Below are positions 6,698-58,938 of a DNA stretch of 64,000 nt, piece by piece. The notes under the pieces were generated by a model. That model did no database searches and was not told the DNA's origin. It saw only the letters and a program-made list of their open reading frames with translations. The stretch's first letter is position 1; every line of letters begins with the position of its first letter. This DNA is from Amphibalanus amphitrite (Eukaryota > Arthropoda > Thecostraca > Balanomorpha > Balanidae): the NCBI RefSeq assembly GCF_019059575.1, contig NW_024881592.1:496001-560000 (forward strand), read 5' to 3'. The translations under genes and the position numbers were made by a program.

Positions 6698-7725
6698 TCA
6701 GCGCATGCCTCCGCCGCCGTCTGGCGCCGCCGGGTAGTGATGTCCGTGACTGTGGTAGTGGTGCGTGGGCATCATGGCCTGACCGGCGGCCGGGTGCGCC
6801 GCGTGTCCGTACATGCCCTGCAGGCCGGCCAGTGGGTGGTGGTGCGCCGCCGCCGCCTGGAAGCCCAGCGCGCCGCCGGGGCTGCTGTGCGCCGGCATCA
6901 CCAGGCCGCCGCCGGCCGCGTGGTGCGCGCGGTGCGCCACGTGCGGGTCCACGGCGCCGTAGCCGGCCACGCCTCCGCCGTAGCCGGTCGGCTGGTATCC
7001 GGAGAGCGGGCCGCCCGCAGACACGGCCGACATACCCATCACGGGACCGTGCGCCGCCGGCGCCTGCTGGGACCGTGCCGGCGTGTGCGACAACGCCTGC
7101 GCAGCCACCGATGACCGCACGTGCGCCGGCGTCTGGCTCGCTAAATGGGCCGGCGATTGACTGGGCATATGGGCTGGAGACTGATTGGACATGTGCGCTG
7201 GAGACTGATTGGACATGTGTGCTGGCGACTGATTGGACATGTGTGCTGGGGACTGGTTGGGCATATGGGCCGGGGATTGGTTGGACATGTGTGCTGTTGT
7301 CTGTGCCGGCACCTGGGTCGGCACGGGCGGCCGCGCCGGGGCGGGTACCTGCGGAGGCGGCGCCGGCTCTCTGGTGGGCGCGGGCGCGGGCGCCGCCACG
7401 GGCGCCGCGGCGACAGCCGGCGTGGTCACCGGCGGCGCGGCAGTGGCCGCCGGCGCCGAGACCGGCGCAGGGGCTGATGCCGGCGCTACGGCCGCCCGGA
7501 CGGCCGTGGCGGCGGTGGCCGCGGGCGGGGGCGGGGGCGGCGCGGCGGCGGCGGTGGCCGTGGGCTGCGCGGTGCCCGGTAGCGGACCGTCCGTCCAGCG
7601 GAGCAGCGCGTGGTGCGGTGAGTGCGAGGCGGCGAACTGGTCCTTGACGAGCGTCTGCGAGAAGCTGGTCTGTTTCTGCAGCTCGGCCGCCTCCTTGGCG
7701 TGCTCCCCACAGGACCGGTACAGAT
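6698..7725 (-). CDS. MAU2: MAU2 exon 11 (last, with long low-complexity tail)
   Basis: The first 47 codons ([20 protein letters not shown] to WTDG) are the conserved MAU2 C-terminus, spliced from acceptor GACAG^AT. The remaining 295 codons are Ala/Pro-rich, then an octapeptide repeat, then Gly/His-rich, ending at TGA (6698-6700). The exon is very GC-rich, so other frames are also open. The frame shown is the one in phase with exon 10 and with homology. Confidence 0.9.
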
Positions 7726-10700
7726 CTGTCGGCAGCGGGAAGGGGAGTTCGGTCACTCACGGCACTTCGACGGTAGCCGAGCGGACCACATCGGCGGCCG
7801 GGGGGGGGGGGGGCACAGCAGGGGCAACAATTATACACACCACATAGGGACAACAGGGGCCAGCAAACATACACCGCACGGGGACAACAGAGAACAACAA
7901 ACATACACACCACACACCACACGGAGACAGCAAAGAACAACAAACAAGTATACCACTAAGCAACCACAGGCGACCATCCAGGCGAATCACCACAAAACAC
8001 ATGGGGCACAGCTGATTCAATCAATAGCCGTCGTCTCATGCAATTGGTCTCCATTAAGTAGTTTTCCTGAATCAACTGGTGTATAACGTCAACAGACCAC
8101 AAGTGCCTGGCTGGTGACCGTTACGTCATTCCCTTCGGAGAACGATTGTGCCCGGCGGATGTGGTTTGCTGCCCACGCCCGTTCAAACAGCCCCTTCGGG
8201 CCTCCGTCGCTCTACACGTGTGCTTCGATAAAAGTCACCGTTATATCACTTCAGTGAAAGAGAAAACAAAAATCAAGGCCATTTAACGAAATATATCTAC
8301 TTGTCTTGAGATATGAGCGACAATAAAATGTCAAATGGGACATTTTGCGTCGTAAATGTGCTGAAGCAAAGAAAGCATTTATCACTGGTGGTAACATATT
8401 TACGTCAGAGCAGCGTCATTAGATGACACAAATACAGCACGGTCTAGCGACCCATCCTTCGGGCCGCGATTGCCGCTCACCGCACATCATTAGATTCGTT
8501 ACACATAAAGGAGAAAAGCGCTCGTCAATGGCGACAGAGGAGCCCTCATTGGAGACTCGCGCATTCATATGCAAAGTGACTAAATCCACGCAGCAGCCAA
8601 CTCCCTGTTTCGATGCAAAGCTGCCCCTCCCCGATTTCCTTAGGATCTCGGTCAAAAGACAGGGCAAACCCCGCTGCACCATCCGCGCCACGGACCACAC
8701 CATGACCTTGCAAATTCCTCCACGATGCCGAATTATTCGCGGCAGACATAGTTTCGAGCGAGACAAAGTACATTTGGTCACTGCGGTTTGTCATCAGCTT
8801 CTCCACAGCGTCATTAAACAAATGACAGTCGTTTGTTCACAACGCCAGCCACAAAACTCAGCCACGTCGACCGGGCAGGGCCAAGGCTGACATTTTTCGC
8901 CGATACTCTGTGCAAAGCGCGGCGTGGCGGTGGCGGGGAACGACGCACGTGGTCCGGCCGACGATGCCTGGTCTCGGCGAAATCTGTCCTTGACAGGTTG
9001 TGTTCGCACGCACCGTTCGAGGAAGCGCCAGGTCGTTGGCAGGAGGGAGAAGTTTACTTCGCAGAAGGATTATCCCCGTCTGCAGCCCTGGGACACAAAA
9101 ATAAGCTGCAACATCTTCCACGGTGGATGCAACGATAAATCTAGAAGAAAATTCCACCTATTCAACTATTCCATCGGGCGGGCAATCCACACATAGTTCG
9201 AGATTGTTTTCGCCACCGCAGCCGTCCAGAATCCGAAAAAGGCGACCACCGAACGGCATAAGGCAACCGACGCAGTCAGGTTCCAACAACAATTATCTGT
9301 AGAGAAACAACATCAGTCAATATGGGACATTTATTGCTGGATTGCAAACGGAATAATCTCTGTTCGACGCGAGAGACAGTTACTGAAGGAACGGGTTTAC
9401 ACTTTTTTCACGTTAACAACAGTGATGGTAGTTTGGAGAGTAGCAACAGTCCATTGCAGCAGCCAACCTTCATATCATGCCATGAAAACGGATGGACATG
9501 TTTTGGTTGAAGTGACGTGAAAATGAGCTTCTTTTAGTCATCACCTCTTCCCGGACCTGTCTGTTGAACTTAGCAACGAAATCAGCCTTATGTGTCGATG
9601 TTCGTTCTCTTGAGACAATTTTCATTTTTTTATTTTTAGTAGCTTAACAACATTCCACACCTTCAGACGGCCTTGGTTACATCCTAAAACCGAATGCAAT
9701 TCGAACAAGTTTTGCGATGTTGAGCATACTCGAGATAACTAGATGCAAACTCATGTAAACGGTTAGCATCATCTTAACACACGGCCAAAAACGTACCAGT
9801 TGCACTAAAACAATCTCAAGCAGCCATTCCGTCCACTCGACCTCATGTTATTAAACAAATCTCTGTCCTGAGGTACGGCGTAGCCACTCGAGGGGCAAGC
9901 ACTGCTGAGGGTCTGGCACAGTACATCGAGCCACTCTAACGTACCATACCGCATCGCTCGCCCTTCGAACGGCGCTATTCCGAACTCGGGAGTGACATTC
10001 GCACGCGTCTCGTATAGATGTGTGCGATTCATTGCATCAGCGCTCTGGGGCGCTCGTAACGAACAGAACCAACCCAATGCGAAGGTATGATCTAAGCGTT
10101 CCTAGAAATGCCCTTCGACCGGTCAATCTGCAAGAGCTCAACATTAACACGTTTAGCCGCGCAGTAATGTGCAAAGCTTGAGAAAAATACCCCAGCGATG
10201 AGCTGAAAGGGGCGGTTTTGATGACATTTGATGTCACACAGGCAAGCTTAGGTGATATAATCTTGCAGGAATGACGCTATCGTCTTCAATCCAGGCGCAG
10301 CGTCACATCTGCATAATTTATCAAAGAAATACTCGCCACCGATAGTTTGCACAACTGTAAATTTCTTCGGGATGTCAGTACGGATCGATACATGTGAATT
10401 AGTGATGACGGACCCGAGCGATAACTTTTACTAAATAATCCCATCATTACCAAAACAATTAGCAACCATCGGTCGGAAAAAACGATGCCCTATCTGACAC
10501 TGTACACTAGGGTGTCCCAAGCATACATGGGAAAAACAAAATTATGAAATATTCAAGGGGCTGAAGTTTGCCCCGGTTCCACTACCGGTAAGGAAGACAC
10601 TGGTCGAGTTTCAGAGGAATCAGAGTATATTTAGAGGTTGCGAGCTTGTGCACTTTTTAACTGAGCAAACCCCATTCCATAATATGTGTAGTAGGGTGTG

Positions 10701-22700: not shown

Positions 22701-25700
22701 TAGGGAGCATCGATATGTTGTTTAAGACCATGTACGCATATGCCCTTTGCTTTTTACGTTCGGAGTGGAACATTGATCTTGAAAGGTTGAATTGAGAGTG
22801 GAAAATGGTTTTCATTTGGATGTCGTTTCACACCCAAATCGATTAATTTTGGGACACTGCACCTGCTCTAAGGTAGTTTAAAAGCACACTTGAAACAAAA
22901 CATTTTTGTTGATATTGTTATCCTCAAACGTCGAGTAACGACATGCAACCTAATCCCCATTCATGACACCAAGTGTGTCAATGCCCCCCCCCCCTCCCTC
23001 TACATGCACCCATTCACTGCACCGACTGGCACCGACACCCTCCCCCTTCCCCCTCCAGTCGGCGGTGGAACCCACTTGGCGTCATTGAAGGCGCGCTGGA
23101 AGAAGCCGTGTAGTCCCTGCACATAGTAGCTGGCGGCGCGCAGACTGTGTGACTGACTGGGCAGCGACTCGGGACTGATGCGGTCCAGCAGGCCCAGAAA
23201 GTCCGACTGTCGACCGGTGCGCAGGTACACGATCGCCAGGTTCATGTTGACGAACGTCCATAGCTCGCGCTCTTGTGATGTCTGTGGGTGGAAGGGGGGG
23301 GGGGTCAGCCGGGAGGGCGGGGTATGAGGGGTGGGGAGGTGCACAGGGTCAATTCGTGCACAGAAGTACACACATCCAAGGCAGACAGAGAACGACATGA
23401 TAAGATCAAGATGTGGATGGTAAAAGAGTAAAATGAAATGAGCGTTTGTAATAGAGGCTAGGGGATTACTATAAAACGAATTTACTTTGGAAAGAGCTGT
23501 TTGCAGTGGCACAATGGTGGTTCGAATTTCGTTAGAAGAAAGCTTTCCCGTCTTCACCGAAAGGACCATTCTAATGTGTAAAACAATGAGGACAATGCAT
23601 GAAAGGCACAATGTAGACAATGCAGTTCTTCAAGTAGGTATCGACTTTATCACCATGTTTGAACAGAATTGGCGAGGATATACCCACGCTACAAGCCACT
23701 GTAAGCCGTATTAACGGCAAGTTCGCATTGTGTGAGCGCCACCTGCGTTTTGAAGAAATGTCTCTCAGCACAGAAGCCTGTGGTGAGCAAGCAGCTACAG
23801 TTATGACAAGGTATATCAGTTGCATTTCACCACTGGGCCATTCCTGTTTATAGGACTGTTGGGACTTGGGAGCCGAGTGGTTATTCCGCTACTGCGTATC
23901 GAGCTCTAGGATGAAGGACATCGGCGCGGTCAATTTAACTGCGAATACACGACCGCACACGCCAACACCAAAAATCACTGTATGAGCAGTGTGCATCATC
24001 AAATCAACCATTCGGCCCAAGACAAGCACAAACCATTTCAAAAAGGCCCAATAAAACATCTGGAGCTACCAACAGCAGCAGCATTCTGTGGTGGGCTACA
24101 CCATGCCCTTCTCCATACACGGGTCAACGGATTTCCCACAGCGCCGACGGCGCGGCGCGGAAAAATCCCGGCGTACAGCTCGCAGCCGGGCGGCGCTGCG
24201 CCGACCGAGCCCACCAGCGGACTCCGCACCTCCTCCCGGTACACAACTGGAGCGTGACTGGAGCACCCGAAAAATCCACCCCCAGTGACCCGCCGACAAA
24301 TGAGATGCTGGCAAACCCTTGTCCACCCACTATCAGATGGAAAACTTCCGTCCATAAATCAAGCACTGCAACAAAACCGGGCATTTTTCCGAGCAGCACT
24401 GACAGGATCCTGTAGGCAGCCTCCCTAATGGAGCATCATTCAGCGCAGAGACACGCTGAAAAGCACGCGAATCCGCCGACGGAATCCAGGAACTCGCCGG
24501 TAGAATGATTCCCCCGAGCTGTGTGTGGCACTGGCTCGGTAAAAAAGCAAACGTCTCTGCGATGTACGCCAGGCATTCCCGGCATGCGAGCATTTCGGTG
24601 CAGCCAGGTTGAATAGAGTATCCGTTTCGGATGTCATGTGCAGATGAGATGGCTACTTATCGATACAGGACAGCGTTTGCAGGAGGCTTGACGTGACGGC
24701 CGCCATCATCCGTGCGGCTGATCTGACCTCTGATTCAGGCCAAGGCCATGGAGTCAACGTGCATCAAATCAATGAACATATGACAAAAGCTCGCTGTCAA
24801 ATATCAAACGTTTATAGGTCACGCGCTGCTCTGAATTTCAATTGATCAGCAATGACCGCCTGATTCAAGATTGTCCATATTTGCCGACGACGAAGTTAAA
24901 AAAACCATTGATAAGTAATTGAGAATCTCTGTCAAACTGACAACAATTGATGTCATCAACATGAAGGGCCGAAGGCCCTATAATTCTACGAAGATACAAA
25001 TATGAGCATTTCAGTTTTCAGAACAAAATCTAAGGAAGGTAATCGAATTTGCAGTTTGCACAGTGACAATCGCCCTAACTAAAACGATAGTATAAAAATA
25101 CGTGTTAACATCTATAAATTTTTATCGCAAGCAATGTGTGACCCTCTTTTTATCAGCTCCTTTCGTTGGCCGCTCAGCACTAAACCCCTCACGACTCGTG
25201 AAACTGGGTTCCCAGTCGCGTGCGAACTGAAGCGCTGGCGACAAAAGCCATGTCAGCAACGTCTCAGCGATCACAGTTCTGTTTACTATCGGCTGCACAA
25301 AACAGACGACCGGGCAGCGGCGGCCGGAACCGGGCCCCATCCGGTGCCGCGCGGGCCCAGCCTCATCTCCCGTCTGCTAGTCACGATCCGCCGCAGCGAC
25401 AGATGCCCGCTGCCACAGAACACAGATGCCCGCCACCTGGACGCATACCTCCCGACCGCCAAACAGTGCTGCTGTTTACCGCTGACCAATTACTGACACG
25501 GTGGCAGCGACAGCTCGTACATACATAGCTCGGCAAACAAAGGACATGCATGAGCGCTGCAGTCACCTTCCTGTGACCGCCGCCACACGCCCCGACGGAC
25601 GGCCGCCACCCCACGCTGGCGGAGAGCCACCCCACGAGCCGCCGGCGCTGATTCGACCGCTGGACTCTGGCGACTTCTGTCCGTGGCGGCGTGGTCTGCC

Positions 25701-50386: not shown

Positions 50387-52051
50387 TTAACGAAGTGGCT
50401 CCACGTGATTTAGCACGCAGCGCACACACCGGTGGAATGAGCGTATGAACGCCTCACGGAAGTCCTTACTGAAGATGACGCAGACGAGAGGGTTCAGAAC
50501 TGCAGTCACGCCTCCGCTTGTCGTTATCATCGTGAATGTGTAGTATCTCTCGCTGGGCATCACCACACACCTGAGACCGCTTGTGTACTGATAAACCACC
50601 AGTATCGGGGCGAACGAGATGAGGAACGTCAGCAGGTAGGTGATCATGGCCATGGTAGCCACCACGTCCACCCTGCCGGTCCTCCGAACAGCGGGTCGAG
50701 CCACTTCTGCCACCGGGAGCAGTCGCGCCACCGCCGCCGAGACGCTCCGCTTGGCGACGTCCCTCTGAGACACGTCTGGTGAGCCGCCAGGCTCGACGGC
50801 TGCTGCGTTCTCCGGTCCCGTAGAGTCGAGGGTGGATGGTTCCAGGACAACCTCTCGGCGGTACCCGGAAGGGCCTGGAGTGGGAGAGTCGACGGGCTGG
50901 CGCTGAATCTCGGACTCGCCAGTGGTGGCAGGAGGGCTGGTCTGCACAGGAGTCTCGGGACTGCCGTTGTTCTTGTTGACGTCATCTGGTTCCGTGCTGG
51001 CTGGAGCTTGTTCAGACTCTGAGTTTCGTTGTGGTGCGGTAGGGGTGCTGACGTTTGCTTGCTGCCCGTTCGCCTCTGGAAGCAGAGCAGTCTGCGGCGG
51101 CTGGCCGGCCCTTTCAGCGAATGCTGACTGTTGGTCTGTGGGTAGCTGATCGCTTGATGTTTGGTCGCCGAAGCAGAAGCACGATATTTGGAACGCATCA
51201 ATAAGTCGTTGATAAAATTTCTTCTGTGGAATGTTCTGAGGAGCCACACTGATCACCACGAACCTAGAACTAAGGACCTTCGACAAAATCTTGATATAGC
51301 AAAAAGATATGATAGCAAAGCCGATTACACATTCAATGATAAGAATGACCAAATATTCGGAAACGCAAATTCCCTCCGGAAGATTGGTGACAATGTATCC
51401 GGTTGGTGTCCTACCAAGATATGTTGCGCATTTGTACTGAGTGCAGGGCAAAAGCAGAACCAGCCGCATCGCACAGGGAAACAAAGCAAGCGATGTGAAA
51501 CAGAGTACATTTTTCCATTCCGTTGGGTAGTGGTGGTCGCATACTACCAGCAAGTACCGCAGCACAGTGATCGTAAGTATAAAGCCGAAGTTGAACGAAA
51601 ATGCGATTGAAGACAGATAATATCGAACTTCACAAAAGACAGAATTCGTCACTGGCAGATCATGCGCCTCAAAAATTGGAGGTACAATCCATATCAGCTG
51701 GGTGATGCACAACAGCGAAACTAGGTAATTCACTAGCGTATGCAGCTTCTTATTGAGGCAAATGGTCAGCAGGACAACTAAGTTGAGCGCTACCGCCAGG
51801 ATAACTGTGACCGTTACCACCGCTACGAACGTTTTGTAGGCTCTATCAGTACTGATGGGGTCGTCCCCTTCCTTGGGCTCGCATATCAGCTGTGAGCTGT
51901 TGTCGGCAATGTGGCGGGCGTTGCACGTCAGCCGCTCCTCCAGGTACAGCAGACAGGTACTGGAGAGTCTGGGCAGCAGTCCTTCTGGAAGACTGCTGGT
52001 GAAATTATCAGTCTCATTACTGGAGACGGCTTGTGCTTGAGAATGACGCAT
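50387..52051 (-). CDS. Divergent orphan rhodopsin-like (class A) GPCR, intronless
   Basis: A 554-residue seven-transmembrane receptor in one exon. I chose the ATG at 52051 over the upstream GTG in the same frame. There is no signal peptide. The extracellular N-terminus (about 70 residues) has NET and NSS glycosylation sites. Approximate helices: TM1 75-98, TM2 106-127, TM3 140-172, TM4 182-203, TM5 230-259, TM6 463-488, TM7 505-528. Loop 3 is about 200 residues, Ser/Pro/Gln-rich. Class A hallmarks are altered: the Asp of TM2 is replaced (Gln118 aligns there), DRY is LRY (164-166), CWxP reads SFAP (P482), and NPxxY is NPLVC (520-524). Cys140 at the top of TM3 is kept. The short tail has several cysteines that could be palmitoylated. 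Ligand and subfamily are unknown. Confidence 0.85.
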   Translation of the reverse strand: MRHSQAQAVSSNETDNFTSSLPEGLLPRLSSTCLLYLEERLTCNARHIADNSSQLICEPKEGDDPISTDRAYKTFVAVVTVTVILAVALNLVVLLTICLNKKLHTLVNYLVSLLCITQLIWIVPPIFEAHDLPVTNSVFCEVRYYLSSIAFSFNFGFILTITVLRYLLVVCDHHYPTEWKNVLCFTSLALFPCAMRLVLLLPCTQYKCATYLGRTPTGYIVTNLPEGICVSEYLVILIIECVIGFAIISFCYIKILSKVLSSRFVVISVAPQNIPQKKFYQRLIDAFQISCFCFGDQTSSDQLPTDQQSAFAERAGQPPQTALLPEANGQQANVSTPTAPQRNSESEQAPASTEPDDVNKNNGSPETPVQTSPPATTGESEIQRQPVDSPTPGPSGYRREVVLEPSTLDSTGPENAAAVEPGGSPDVSQRDVAKRSVSAAVARLLPVAEVARPAVRRTGRVDVVATMAMITYLLTFLISFAPILVVYQYTSGLRCVVMPSERYYTFTMITTSGGVTAVLNPLVCVIFSKDFREAFIRSFHRCVRCVLNHVEPLR

Positions 52052-52826
52052 TACGAACACATTCGGTCCTTTGTACTGAACTCAGTTTTAACTGCTCGCA
52101 GTGTTTGGCTTTACGGCAGTTTAAATCGCTGCACGCACGGTTAACACAAAACTTTTGTGAATATTCCAGTGTCAAAGATCTGTCATCGGTGACTAGCTTG
52201 ATTGTCTTGTTCGACAAGCCTGATTCCACATCACCTACTGTCTGCAAACAACAGAAATTTGTCTGTGATATCTGCCGTTACCTTTCAATTTCACAAATAA
52301 GACCCGCGGGAGGATTGCAGCTCTAAACCGTTAACATTGACAGTCTAGTGATCGAGTATACAGTTTTGCCCATAGTCACATGGGGTAAAGCTGCCAGCTG
52401 TCAATCTCACCATGCCAGCTGGCCAGCCTCCTGTCCAAAAGGCGCAGCGTTTTGTCGCTCCCTCCGCGGCTCAGCCAGCACTGGATCGGACAGCCGGCCC
52501 GCGCGGCTCGAGACCGACGCCGTCCGACGACTGAGGACTGGACGGGCGGTCAGGGCGACTCGGTGGCTGTAGTCGCACTGAGACCGACTCTGACCGGCGA
52601 CCAGCACAGGCCGACTGCTGGCATCGATCAGTGGGTGTTCAGTGAGAGACGTGCTCTGTCACAGAGCCGGGAACACCGCGCTAATGAGCACCGTGCTTGG
52701 TGCATCCGCACCCGGAACTCACTCACAGCAGCCCGAGCCTTTCACTGTCCTTCCATTGCCCAGCTCGGTTCGTGGACTGATCGCTGTTAGAACACATGGA
52801 TTTCAAAGGTGGATGCAGTGCGGCTA
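52052..52826. promoter_or_regulatory. Region upstream of the GPCR, includes a GC-rich block
   Basis: Probable 5' UTR and promoter of the minus-strand GPCR. The 52430-52760 block is GC-rich with an open frame on the plus strand (52452-52790) that has no recognisable domain and is probably not coding. No TATA box could be assigned. Confidence 0.35.
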
Positions 52827-54722: not shown

Positions 54723-57122
54723 CTAGCGCCGATCTGTGGGCGAAGCTCCGGGCATCGACTCATACAGAGGATTATCAACGAGCTCGTCGACGTGCTGACT
54801 CTCCCACTGAACCGAGTCACCGGTAGTCGAATCAATTTCAGAGTACAGGGCCTCAGTGGGTGCCGTCTCCTGACAATTTTCAGTTTTGAAGGCAGCATCG
54901 TCATTGGAGGCTGCAGATGATGTCGGGTTGTAAGATAGGTTGGGTCTAGTGAGACATTCATCATCCTCAGATCGTTTGTTTTTCCTGCCCTTTACAACGA
55001 CGGCATAAGTAGCAGAACCACGCTCATCCTCTACTACGGTACTACTGGTTTTCTGCTTGTTTTCGTTGTTAAGGACACATTCCTGCTCAACATGAACTGG
55101 TGGCGATCCCTTGATGTGCAACACTTTGCAATGCTCTTCCAGCGATCTGCTTGTAGCTCTTTCGCCTTTTGACACCACTGCATAAGCAGGCATATCTTTG
55201 TTCGTAGTGTCAACGTCATGAAGTGTCTCTGCACTTGCGCCACTAGGATTGTCAGCATGGTCGCTTGGCTCCGAGCCGTGGATGCTTCCACCATGTGTGC
55301 CATTTGCGGTAGCTACTTGTGACATATTGTCATCAGTCTTTCCCTTCACAACACTGGCATAAAGAGGGAACGGTCCCGTGGACTTGCTGTTGTTATCAGT
55401 TCCTCCCGCATTTTCTTTTGACTTTTTCTTTACTACTTTCGCATACACTGCTTGAACTGCATCCATAGAATTTTGCTCTGACGTTTCCTCGCTTTGGAGG
55501 GGGGTTTGCCTCAATGTCTTCATGGACACGCTCGGTTGCGTCTTTTGACCCGCTACTTCTGTACTCATGGTTGCAAACTTTTCAGCCGTCACATCCTCAT
55601 AGACAGATTCATATTCGTTTTCCACACTCGGTTGTCCGAACTGTAAATCCTCGTAGGCAGTCAAGCTGATGGACATGACCGTCTTATCTTCACCTGATTT
55701 GTCAGCAGAGACGAGGATCTCACAATACGTCTGATCGTCCTCGCCATCATCAGCTGGCTTCTTGGTCAAAGGGGGCTCTTCGGTGGCAGCATTCTCGACA
55801 TGCACAGCGCCTGTCTTCGCCTCGCCAGGGAAGTCCTGGCTCGCTCCAGCCCATCGTCTCTTGACAAGGATCACCATCACCACAACCAGAAGGACCGGAA
55901 CCGCAACCAAGGCGAACAGCGGGCGCACAGTGTTTTCCTCCGAAGATTTGTCGGGTTGTTGGTCTGCGGCCGTCCCCTGTTCCTCGGATCCAGCGGATCC
56001 TGGTGAAGTGGTACTGCCCCCTTCCTCCCGGCAGTACTGCTCGATAAACTCGGACGTAGCCAAAGTGACGTTATCGAGCGAGCACGAGCTGTCGTGGATC
56101 AGTCCTTGGAGTCGGAGCTCCCCTTCTGTTCTGTTGTGAGATGGCGCAGCTTCTGGTCCGCGCACAAGTCGCTGAAACAGTTGTCCGACGTTACACATGC
56201 AATCAACATGAAGCGTTAGCTTTTGAACAGCCACGTTGGCGCCATTGACAAACTGGAGGGAGCCGTTTTCTGCCTGGTGGACGGATAGTCTAGTGATGTT
56301 AATGGATGCTTCCGAATGGCCAATTTGCAGACCTCTGAAGCTGTTTTCTCTTAATTTGGTCACATTGTTTCCGTCAAGCAGAATGTACCTTGTTGCCCTT
56401 ACAATCAGCGCATCTGACGCAATGTCCTGGAAGGTGCTCGCCTTTATCGATAGTGTATCTACTGGCAGTCGAAATGCCTCCGTTTCAATCACACCAATGC
56501 TGGCTGATTCAATAACCACACTGTTGATTGGTGTGCTGAAGGCCTTGGACTTGATTTGCGGAAGGCGGCAGGATCTTACGACCAGACTGTTCATGCTGTG
56601 CGCATTGAGACATTCCTTTCCGACTTCTGAAACATTCGCAGAGTGCAGCAAAAGGTTTTCAATGTGTCCACCAAAAGTGTTGAAGGAGCACGTGGGTAAA
56701 GTGGAGTCTTTAATCATGAGGTGGGAGACATTTGCTTTAAATGCCCCTCCTTCGAAATTAAGTGACGATATGTTTTCAAAGAGCACCTTGCGAAGTGTTG
56801 AAGTGCTTGAGAATGCAGACCACTTCACCATGGAAACTTCCACATTCTTGACGATGAGCTCGCTGTCGTGACCCCAGCTGTTGATTGCATTTGAATGTAT
56901 CTCCAGGTTCACCACGTTGTCGATTATCACTGATAGAGCTGGATGGTGAGGTTCACGCATCAGGGAGTCTTCCAACAGCAGCAGTTTGCTGATGTTGCTA
57001 AATGTGATATTTTCTAGACTTTCCCTCGAGTACAAGAAGTCCTTCTGTACTTCGATTGTCTGGATGTTGACTAGGTTGACTGTTCTCATTGTTTCTGGGA
57101 AGCTTTGCATCATTATTCTTAT
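54723..57122 (-). CDS. LRR-like type I receptor with multiple tyrosine motifs, last exon (5' incomplete)
   Basis: The frame is open through a splice acceptor TTGTTTCAG^ATA at 57123, so 57122 is taken as the start of the last exon (799 residues). A first exon with a signal peptide must lie upstream but was not found. The ATG at 57113 is the alternative start. Residues 1 to about 300 are irregular leucine-rich-like repeats of about 20-25 residues (patterns such as IxVIExxAF, LxSLVVRSCRL) with about ten N-glycosylation sites. A CMC...C...C cap (about 307-364) resembles LRRCT. A Ser/Glu stalk precedes one membrane helix (about 402-421) and a KRR stop-transfer. The 378-residue tail has YxxL/V/I at Y466, 490, 504, 508, 560, 588, 647, 706 and 760, then NPLYESM (Y787). 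These are typical SH2/PTB docking sites, so a signalling receptor is inferred. The ligand is unknown. Confidence 0.8.
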   Translation of the reverse strand: MRIMMQSFPETMRTVNLVNIQTIEVQKDFLYSRESLENITFSNISKLLLLEDSLMREPHHPALSVIIDNVVNLEIHSNAINSWGHDSELIVKNVEVSMVKWSAFSSTSTLRKVLFENISSLNFEGGAFKANVSHLMIKDSTLPTCSFNTFGGHIENLLLHSANVSEVGKECLNAHSMNSLVVRSCRLPQIKSKAFSTPINSVVIESASIGVIETEAFRLPVDTLSIKASTFQDIASDALIVRATRYILLDGNNVTKLRENSFRGLQIGHSEASINITRLSVHQAENGSLQFVNGANVAVQKLTLHVDCMCNVGQLFQRLVRGPEAAPSHNRTEGELRLQGLIHDSSCSLDNVTLATSEFIEQYCREEGGSTTSPGSAGSEEQGTAADQQPDKSSEENTVRPLFALVAVPVLLVVVMVILVKRRWAGASQDFPGEAKTGAVHVENAATEEPPLTKKPADDGEDDQTYCEILVSADKSGEDKTVMSISLTAYEDLQFGQPSVENEYESVYEDVTAEKFATMSTEVAGQKTQPSVSMKTLRQTPLQSEETSEQNSMDAVQAVYAKVVKKKSKENAGGTDNNSKSTGPFPLYASVVKGKTDDNMSQVATANGTHGGSIHGSEPSDHADNPSGASAETLHDVDTTNKDMPAYAVVSKGERATSRSLEEHCKVLHIKGSPPVHVEQECVLNNENKQKTSSTVVEDERGSATYAVVVKGRKNKRSEDDECLTRPNLSYNPTSSAASNDDAAFKTENCQETAPTEALYSEIDSTTGDSVQWESQHVDELVDNPLYESMPGASPTDRR

Positions 57123-57456
57123 CTGAAACAAGGAAAATATGGTCAGAGTCCTGTAGACATGCTCGTATATATTTGAACTGAGAACTTTGAAACGTTTTGC
57201 ATATCATAAGCACAAGCAATTGTGCAATACTAGTCGTTTTCACGACGGCTTATATGGCAAATGCACCAGACTTGATCATATTTGCACCTAACCTCTTTTA
57301 CTTTTTAATCTTACTTTTCAGAGATTAGACCGACTTTTTTAATGAACGGATTGTCAGAGCCGGAGCCTACGCTAAACAGAGCTTGTTGCGTAGACCCCGA
57401 CCCTCACCGTCCGATCGCGCAATTTCGGGTAACGGGAGGATTTGATTGGACAAAGT
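57123..57456. other. Presumed intron upstream of the receptor exon
   Basis: No convincing upstream exon. A short frame starting MKTTSIAQLLVLM at 57243 looks like a signal peptide but has no usable donor (see rejected items). Confidence 0.4.
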
Positions 57457-57749
57457 TTAACCCGCGCCGGGCCGGTGCTCCGCAACTTCCGCGACGGGCC
57501 GGGGGGTGTCTGAGCACTGATTCTGGTCCACGTAGCGCGTAGCGACACGCGGTAAGCGGCATTCGAAAGAACGTCCAAAATAAGGATGAAAACACTTCGG
57601 CCATTTTTTGGTCAGGTCAAAGGTCAGGTCACCAGGTCACCAGAGGTAAAAATGTTGGCTATTTCAGCATTTTGGAAACTGCCAACGGCTAAGTCAGGAA
57701 ATGATAGAGATACAGCGTCGCGGAAAAGCGCATTCGATAGCTCTTTTAA

Positions 57750-58938
57750 CCCGCGCCCTGCTGGAGGTCCTGGATTTCCACGCCCTGCTGGGGGGGGGGG
57801 TGTTTGAACACCCCCCCTTGTAACTCGGCTCCTGGGCCACGTAGCGATACGCGGAAGGCGGCGTTCGAAAGAGCGTAAAAAATAATGACGAAATCACTTC
57901 AGTCAATTTTTGGTTAGGTCAAAGGTCAGGTCACCAGAGGTCATTGAAGGCTAAATTTCGCCGATTTCCAGGTCGAATGTCGAAAACTTCCAAGAAGCCA
58001 ACGCATAACTCGGGAACCAATAGAGCTACAGCGCCGCGGAAAAGTGCATTCGATAGCCCTTTTAATGCCCTTTCTGAGTAATTCTCTCAGATTTGACCTA
58101 ACGTCAACGGTTTTGCCCGCAGGGGGCAAAAACTGCAAAAATAGCCGATTTTTTCGGAAACAGATTTTCTGCAATAACTTTTGACCCAAGCCTTGTACGA
58201 GCTTACTTTCACCGGCATCGTGTTCCTCTCGTCAAGACGCATCGAATGAACTATAACTTGACCTTGAAAGGTCAACTTGAAAATTTGACCTCAGGTCAAG
58301 GTCATGACCTGACCGGAAAGGGTCATGTTGCATATCAGTCGATCCGTATCGTCGAGCTGAACACATATAAGGCATTTTCATCGCTCTAGCATGCCTTTAT
58401 CAAAAGTTATTTGCGAAAAACTGTTAGATACCATTCGTGACCTAAGATGACCTCAGGGCATAAACAAGGGTCACGGACACCATTTTCATGTTCAGTGTGT
58501 CTAAACCACTTGTAATTCGGTGTTTGGGAGTGTTTATAATGTCTTTCGTCCAAAAGAGACGCATTTCAATTTTCTCCCATTGACTTATAATGGGGAGGTC
58601 GCAAAATTGACCTGACCTTAGGTCAACGATATCAAAATTCTGAGATATACATTTTGTACATGCTATTGCTCTTAGCAATCGCTGAAAGTTTCAAAGCGAT
58701 CGGTCACTCGGTGTAGCTATGACAGACATTGAAACATTTTATGAGGTGAGGTCACTTCAAGTGACCTGGTGACCTGACCTTGAATGACCTTGGTCTGAAA
58801 TTTTCACAACATGTGTAGAATTGATGAATGATAAGGTGTACCAAAAACAGCGGCGCTCCGCGCCGCCGTTTTTGAGATATTCGCGAAAAACCACAAGGGG
58901 GGGGGGGGTGTTCAAACACCCCCCCAGCAGGGCGCGGG
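57750..58938. mobile_element. TTAA-flanked element, complete copy, nested
   Basis: TTAA lies at 57746-57749 and 58939-58942. The left end is CCCGCGCCCTGCTGGAGGTC and the right end CAGCAGGGCGCGGG. 1189 bp, in the opposite orientation to the copy at 26778-27972 and very similar to it throughout. It contains the everted half-site pair at 58259-58274 and AGGTCA-AGGTCA-TGACCT at 58293-58310. Confidence 0.85.

Follow-up and report, generated by a model that had tools for sequence, protein, structure and literature searches.

A leucine-rich-repeat-like receptor with a tyrosine-motif-rich tail in the barnacle Amphibalanus amphitrite, and its predicted family with apparent exchange of cytoplasmic tails

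The DNA considered here, a stretch of 64,000 nucleotides of the barnacle Amphibalanus amphitrite (contig NW_024881592.1, positions 496,001 to 560,000; hereafter the window), carries a receptor-like gene whose predicted cytoplasmic tail is crowded with tyrosine motifs, and raises the question whether this gene stands alone or belongs to a signalling system. An earlier note, made from the letters alone, had proposed an unusual leucine-rich repeat (LRR) phosphotyrosine receptor. The LRR-like ectodomain, the excess of YxxPhi motifs and their kinase- and SH2-like context were borne out by our analysis, but the gene is not a lone one and belongs to a large family. We consider it likely that this is an expanded family of phosphotyrosine receptors with a paired-receptor-like exchange of tails, of which the window gene is one member, and the interest of the locus lies mainly in the family and in the tail exchange.

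An open-frame check of the minus strand gave one open exon of 799 codons plus stop (Table 1), starting directly after a clean phase-0 acceptor with the junction between TTGTTTCAG and ATA. The exon product has a single hydrophobic helix (residues 402-420, Kyte-Doolittle mean 3.36), preceded by an ectodomain of about 399 residues with 10 N-glycosylation sequons and seven cysteines, and followed by a tail of 379 residues counted from KRRW; the long tail of the earlier note thus stands, its count of 378 does not. A Pfam search of the 799-residue product with expect (E) values up to 1 gave no match to a TIR domain, neither the window protein nor any of 21 family members matched an immunoglobulin (Ig) or sushi family in Pfam, and NCBIfam and single-sequence PDB searches with the window protein returned nothing useful. 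The prediction of a type-I, LRR-like receptor with a YxxPhi-rich tail is supported, and the protein would presumably be located at the cell surface.

Ten of the eleven tyrosines in the window tail lie in YxxL/I/V/M motifs, against a mean of 1.7 in shuffles that keep composition, none of which (0/20000) reached ten. With YxxL/I/V alone nine motifs were observed against a shuffled mean of 1.5 (0/20000 reach nine). All nine YxxL/V/I motifs and the terminal NPLYESM listed in the earlier note are present; NPLY occupies residues 784-787, and its tyrosine is also that of YESM. SVYEDV had been singled out as a strict immunoreceptor tyrosine-based inhibition motif (ITIM), and it is indeed the only match to [SIVL]xYxx[ILV] in the tail. 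The corresponding activation motif (ITAM) suggested for YEDL and YESV fared less well: the two are 10 residues apart as described, but fit only a loose pattern (V accepted, gap 6-12), and the strict pattern (YxxL/I, 6-8 residues, YxxL/I) has no match in the window tail.

To place the gene in its genome, 807,550,619 bases in 2644 contigs were searched, with both haplotypes present. The window exon product as query gave 58 matching stretches at 56 places, and a second family member gave 88 stretches; the union of both queries amounts to 80 places, a figure in which the two haplotypes, and perhaps a few distant LRR genes, are counted together. The idea of a lone oddity was rejected on this result, and the window gene is, as judged from its predicted product, one member of a large, expanded family in its own genome. 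After the haplotype copy, the best match is 26% identical to the window exon product, and among the 58 matches the nearest ectodomain beyond its own copy is less than 31% identical to that of the window gene. A phase-0 exon start followed by homologous sequence was found at 23 of 25 loci, and 21 ectodomains could be aligned, with four invariant cysteines. A profile of these 21 members matched solved structures of LRIG1 (8.1e-12), TLR2 (9.2e-6) and LGR4 (1.5e-4). Pfam LRR_8 was matched by 14 of the 21 members (E up to 0.1) and Beta_helix by 11, while for the window member alone every Pfam match fell below its cut-off. We regard the family ectodomain as a probable diverged LRR.

The tails were then counted. 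A clear helix was present at 36 of 40 loci (L016, L028, L029 and L040 were left out of the tail counts), and the 36 tails collapsed to 22 distinct ones at 70% tail identity; loci L051-L057 stand outside the YxxPhi and context counts. Of the 126 tyrosines in the 22 distinct tails, 63 belong to YxxPhi motifs (shuffled mean 18.4, maximum 33 in 5000 shuffles); the count is 53 of 115 when the window gene is removed. An aliphatic residue is found at +3 of 63/124 tail tyrosines (51%) vs a background of 14.7%; the corresponding values are 7.5-28% at +3 of 14 other residues, 33% at -1 of tail tyrosines, and 30% vs 26% background at +3 of ectodomain tyrosines. At least two YxxPhi motifs occur in 11 of the 22 tails, led by the window gene with 10, L032 with 8 (a lower bound, since this tail ends at the locus edge), L015 with 7 and L025 with 5.

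Around the 63 motifs, acidic residues are enriched 2.35-fold at -3 and 3.5-fold at +2, aliphatic residues are enriched 2.8-fold at -1, and basic residues at +2 occur at 0.73 times expectation. Aliphatic -1 and acidic -3 residues are typical of Src-family substrates, and the context as a whole suits Src-family kinases and many SH2 domains, while the clathrin adaptor AP-2 prefers the opposite at +2. The context of the predicted motifs fits a Src/SH2-like rather than an AP-2-like pattern. NPxY occurs four times, in three of the 22 distinct tails (shuffled mean 0.37; 2/4000 shuffles reach four), the pattern [S/I/V/L]xYxx[I/V/L] in 10 of the 22 when T is allowed at -2, and a strict ITAM only in L041.

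A paired-receptor-like organisation is seen in the L025 subfamily, in which eight members carry tail class A (51-99% identical to each other) and seven carry class B, with 19-44% identity between the classes. L025 and L027 (A) are 97% identical to L031 (B) in the ectodomain and 28% in the tail; L036 (A) and the class B members L047 and L055 share 83% of the ectodomain and 41/36% of the tail; and L057 (A) and L051 (B) share 85% and 24%, respectively. The converse case is L034/L036, with ectodomains 75% and tails 96% identical. Class A and class B each form one clade in the tail tree (100/100 support), and the ectodomain data reject class A (approximately unbiased test, p-AU 1.1e-67) and class B (8.3e-61) as clades; the tail data in turn reject the three ectodomain groupings (p-AU 1.6e-7, 1.4e-45 and 7.3e-28). 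DNA similarity stops 24 bases beyond the helix in L025/L031 and 64 bases beyond it in L036/L047, and the third swap (L057/L051) breaks about 60 residues ahead of the helix. These comparisons show both of the diverged tail classes on the same ectodomain lineages in three separate cases, with breaks near the membrane.

Gene clusters lie on contigs C1385 and C1194. L025 and L031 lie on one contig, about 9 kb apart. A frameshift as the cause of their tail difference was rejected, since similarity at the DNA level does not extend past the region of the helix and since the tails of L047 and L049 are homologous to that of L031. Among the members fetched, class A tails hold 2-6 YxxPhi motifs and class B tails 1-3, and the two classes are distantly related (z 5.6 for L025/L031). 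Since class B holds these one to three motifs and is distant kin to class A, the tail classes are diverged forms and not wholly different ones. The eight class A tails have four columns of motif tyrosines that do not vary where they occur, with 87 of 194 columns invariant overall; a fifth motif column is lost in two tails and absent in two. A proline run, MPLPPPPPTE, is conserved in the class A tails L025, L034, L036, L038, L039 and L057 and variant in L056, and is possibly a site for SH3, WW or EVH1 domains. A further locus, L040 (G000:C1194:19233-20393), has an ectodomain 99% identical to that of L025 with an in-frame TAA, and may be a pseudogene or a sequence donor. Long ATG microsatellites (poly-Met in frame) precede the exon start in L025, L027, L031 and L047, and may help recombination among copies.

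The window gene itself has a second copy (C28), 94% identical across the 799 residues and 95% at the DNA level over 4.4 kb. A G protein-coupled receptor (GPCR) gene of the window (50387-52081) adjoins the C28 copy too, in the same order and with 94% identity, and we read the copy as allele-like, that is, as the other haplotype. It retains all 10 YxxPhi motifs and the eleventh tail tyrosine. The earlier note had asked for conservation of the tyrosines, and this was checked on the allele-like copy, where ten of ten motifs are kept, and on paralogues of the same genome. In eight non-overlapping close pairs (of 14 compared) tyrosines within motifs are kept in 35 of 37 cases and other tyrosines in 10 of 14; the retention of the former is only slightly above expectation (see below).

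How such a family could work can be outlined as follows. An upstream exon would supply the signal peptide and a four-cysteine cap to a type-I receptor with an LRR-like ectodomain, and the long, probably disordered tail would be an array of phosphotyrosine docking sites. Once a ligand binds or the receptor clusters, the YxxPhi sites may be phosphorylated by a Src-family kinase, and SH2 readers could dock there, of the SHP-2/Corkscrew type at ITIM-like sites and of the Syk/Shark or PI3K types elsewhere, with a PTB adaptor at NPLY. The genome encodes an SHP-2/Corkscrew orthologue with tandem SH2 domains and a phosphatase (1.8e-237 to human PTPN11) and also PLC-gamma, both among its 75 SH2 stretches. 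In the clustered subfamily, a YxxPhi-rich and a generally poorer tail on the same ectodomain would give one ligand different read-outs. In this outline we infer phosphorylation, readers, opposing signals and a role in defence or self recognition from the sequence. A bolder version, to which we give somewhat less than even credence, is an arthropod paired-receptor system in which recombination homogenises or exchanges ectodomains and motif-rich and motif-poorer tails turn one ligand into go or stop; it would be an LRR counterpart of KIR, LILR and SIRP evolved independently in crustaceans, with the window gene as the most heavily armed tyrosine-array member. The clustered family offers gene pairs that can be tested.

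Several results weigh against the reading as a phosphotyrosine receptor family with exchanged tails. Half of the distinct tails (11/22) are poor in the motif, nine having one YxxPhi and two none. The 35 of 37 motif tyrosines kept in close pairs do not differ significantly from the approximately 32 predicted from flank identity, L026/L037 keeps two of four, and the class-B pairs keep 1/3 and 1/1. Between the window tail and its C28 allele the nucleotide differences at codon positions 1, 2 and 3 number 2, 13 and 10, with no silent (third-position) excess (P 0.3), and the ratio of nonsynonymous to synonymous change (dN/dS) is 0.73, so that this tail is relaxed or fast-evolving; the ectodomain of the same pair has a dN/dS of 0.35 and does show silent excess (P 0.009). 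Among 11 pairs silent excess at P < 0.05 was observed in 9 ectodomains and 3 tails, and the family tails evolve fast. Support for the tail reading frame comes from its being open in both copies and from the motif statistics, not from silent change; the missing excess neither proves nor refutes translation of the window tail in this frame. As to the ectodomain, Beta_helix is roughly on a par with LRR_8 in the Pfam matches (11 against 14 of 21 members). The third swap depends on L051, which has an interrupted ectodomain (one TGA, one TAG) and a tail cut by the locus end, and its partner L057 is without the final two motifs of class A; the other two exchanges are independent of the caveats on L051, L057 and L040. 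Linked genes that combine nearly the same ectodomain with differing tails are found in the L025 subfamily, not for the window gene, which has no tail-swapped partner. Its tail as query in the genome found only its own two copies (E up to 1), and on the same search a copy of another gene's tail was rejected as its origin. The window and L015 tails both have SVYEDV, four YAxV motifs and then a C-terminal NPLY, but common descent, suggestive by eye, was weak in tests and was not accepted (z 2.8, matched by 25/400 motif-keeping shuffles).

Some of these points would suit a tail that is merely a fast, weakly constrained disordered segment, in which the motifs survive through descent and low complexity while the single sites have little function: the window tail lacks third-position excess, half of the distinct tails have at most one YxxPhi, and motif tyrosines in close pairs are kept barely more than their flanks. 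We nevertheless hold this to be improbable, as the preferences at +3 and +2 recur in all of the set of 22 tails, which for the most part cannot be aligned, and are absent for other residues, and four of five class A motif columns are invariant as compared to the 87 of 194 overall. It is just as doubtful that the motifs are mainly AP-2 endocytic sorting signals of a scavenger or uptake receptor, with NPLY as another internalisation signal; YxxPhi and NPxY are classic sorting signals, and NPxY recurs in three distinct tails, but ten copies go far beyond the need for sorting, the 3.5-fold acidic excess and basic depletion at +2 are the opposite of the AP-2 preference, and the -1 and -3 residues suit Src-family substrates. 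A more serious competitor, although we still regard it as unlikely, is an adhesion or developmental LRR receptor comparable to neuronal LRR proteins, with a tail that docks scaffolds and with expansion and tail turnover reflecting recognition between cells or individuals and not immunity. Among solved structures the family profile matches best with LRIG1 and further LRR proteins of adhesion and signalling, the class A tails have the proline run PLPPPPP, and barnacles settle in groups; on the other hand, tandem copies, high divergence and tail exchange suit recognition families better than housekeeping adhesion. Between immunity and other recognition, no evidence here separates the two. Artefacts of assembly or of haplotypes seem a very improbable source of the swapped tails. 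The assembly contains both haplotypes, and L025 and L031 hardly differ over part of their ectodomains, but these two sit about 9 kb apart on one contig and the L031 tail has homologues in L047 and L049; a chimaera of one gene also fails for the other two swaps because their ectodomains differ by 15-17%.

The proposed family of phosphotyrosine receptors with exchanged tails resembles several known systems in part. Vertebrates have receptor families in which activating and inhibitory tyrosine motifs oppose each other. Vertebrate paired receptors (KIR, LILR, SIRP, FcR-like) likewise have clustered genes and near-identical ectodomains with different signalling tails, but their ectodomains are of the Ig type, unlike the LRR-like barnacle family. 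Their activating members as a rule combine a charged helix with an adaptor, whereas no charge is present in the helix of L025 or of L031. Toll and other arthropod LRR receptors have the extracellular LRRs, cysteine caps and type-I topology that are predicted for the barnacle family; they differ in the TIR domain, which Pfam did not find in the window exon product. The ectodomain of the cnidarian Alr proteins is Ig-type.

Outside vertebrates, there is a published precedent for an LRR receptor whose ITIM-like tyrosines are phosphorylated, namely BbLcLRR of amphioxus, for which excerpts of the paper describe phosphorylation of the tail by Lck, recruitment of SHIP1 and less of SHP1/2, and an inhibitory effect in Jurkat cells (PMC8211107). 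By description, it has in common with the window receptor an LRR ectodomain, one membrane helix and ITIM or ITIM-like tail tyrosines; it differs in coming from a chordate, in its length of 699 residues, in its WSC domain and in having three major phosphotyrosines, and the excerpts mention neither a gene family nor tail exchange (PMC8211107). For Drosophila, opposite outcomes are described for Draper-I, which has an ITAM (Shark), and Draper-II, which has an ITIM (Corkscrew), as excerpted from PMC4503800. Draper is an arthropod receptor with ITAM and NPXY, in which one ectodomain is given opposite tails; it differs in its CED-1 family ectodomain and in that the choice of tail is made by alternative splicing within a single gene and not among gene duplicates. 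If the proposed reading is true, gene pairs in the barnacle would do what Draper does by splicing. The fester co-receptors (FcoR) of Botryllus and Alr candidates of Hydractinia have tails with ITIM, hemITAM or core YxxI/L/V motifs, proposed in the excerpted text to balance activating and inhibitory signals (PMC12065747). The FcoR ectodomains are Ig/sushi, not LRR, and tail choice is partly by alternative splicing (PMC12065747). The same source describes activating and inhibitory tyrosine-motif receptor families for a tunicate and a cnidarian, with Ig-type ectodomains (PMC12065747); a clustered arthropod LRR family exchanging tails at the membrane would show the same wiring arisen on another scaffold. 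Among open-licence PMC papers we found no description of such a clustered LRR tail-exchange family in a crustacean.

The window exon is the 3' part of its gene. In relatives, a further exon upstream encodes a signal peptide and a four-cysteine cap and has a phase-0 donor; with one such exon as query, tblastn found it in eight of the loci searched, the source of the query included. No convincing candidate for a first exon was found within the 64-kb window. In the 26 kb upstream of the window gene, one open stretch has the features expected of such an exon (Table 1), with a signal-like helix, cysteines ordered as in the relatives and a phase-0 donor (ACA/GTAAGC). Its tblastn match to a relative's exon had an E value of 0.65, where a chance match in the same region scored 0.23. 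The signal-peptide exon of the window gene probably lies at this place, 9.5 kb upstream; because of the poor tblastn score the candidate is graded only as probable. With it, the gene would have an intron of 9.5 kb and encode a precursor of 869 residues.

Table 1. Receptor gene features, in window coordinates (position 1 is the first base of the window).
Feature	Position	Strand	Remarks
3' exon of receptor gene, residues 1-799 counted from exon start	54723..57122	-	open frame, acceptor, C28 copy 94%
Phase-0 splice acceptor AG	57123..57124	-	homologous exon start in 23/25 family loci examined
Ectodomain part, residues 1-399, LRR-like repeats	55926..57122	-	cysteines 145, 171, 310, 347 invariant in 21 aligned members
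Predicted transmembrane helix LFALVAVPVLLVVVMVILV, residues 402-420	55863..55919	-	hydropathy
Predicted cytoplasmic tail, residues 421-799, 11 tyrosines, 10 in YxxPhi motifs	54726..55862	-	
YCEI	55716..55727	-	
YEDL	55644..55655	-	
YESV	55602..55613	-	
YEDV within SVYEDV, sole strict ITIM match of tail	55590..55601	-	C28 copy has YGDV
YAKV	55434..55445	-	
YASV	55350..55361	-	
YAVV (first)	55173..55184	-	
YAVV (second)	54996..55007	-	
YSEI	54834..54845	-	
NPLYESM, NPxY and YxxM with one common tyrosine	54753..54773	-	
Candidate first exon, 70 codons	66863-66654 (G000:C95:562863-562654; L009:3863-3654)	-	outside window

Just upstream of the receptor exon, at 57456-57937, direct repeats (98 and 51 bases) that have diverged lie some 300 bases apart, accompanied by AGGTCA-rich stretches; they probably belong to an interspersed repeat. 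The neighbouring GPCR exon at 50387-52081 (minus strand) looks intronless and encodes a class A receptor (7tm_1, E 3.2e-7, at cut-off) with a long third loop; its 58 matching stretches in the genome point to another expanded family. The window further contains an open frame at 23000-23629 (minus strand), the second half of which presumably resembles the cohesin loader MAU2/SCC4, and a low-complexity frame with repeated units at 6698-7756 (minus strand).

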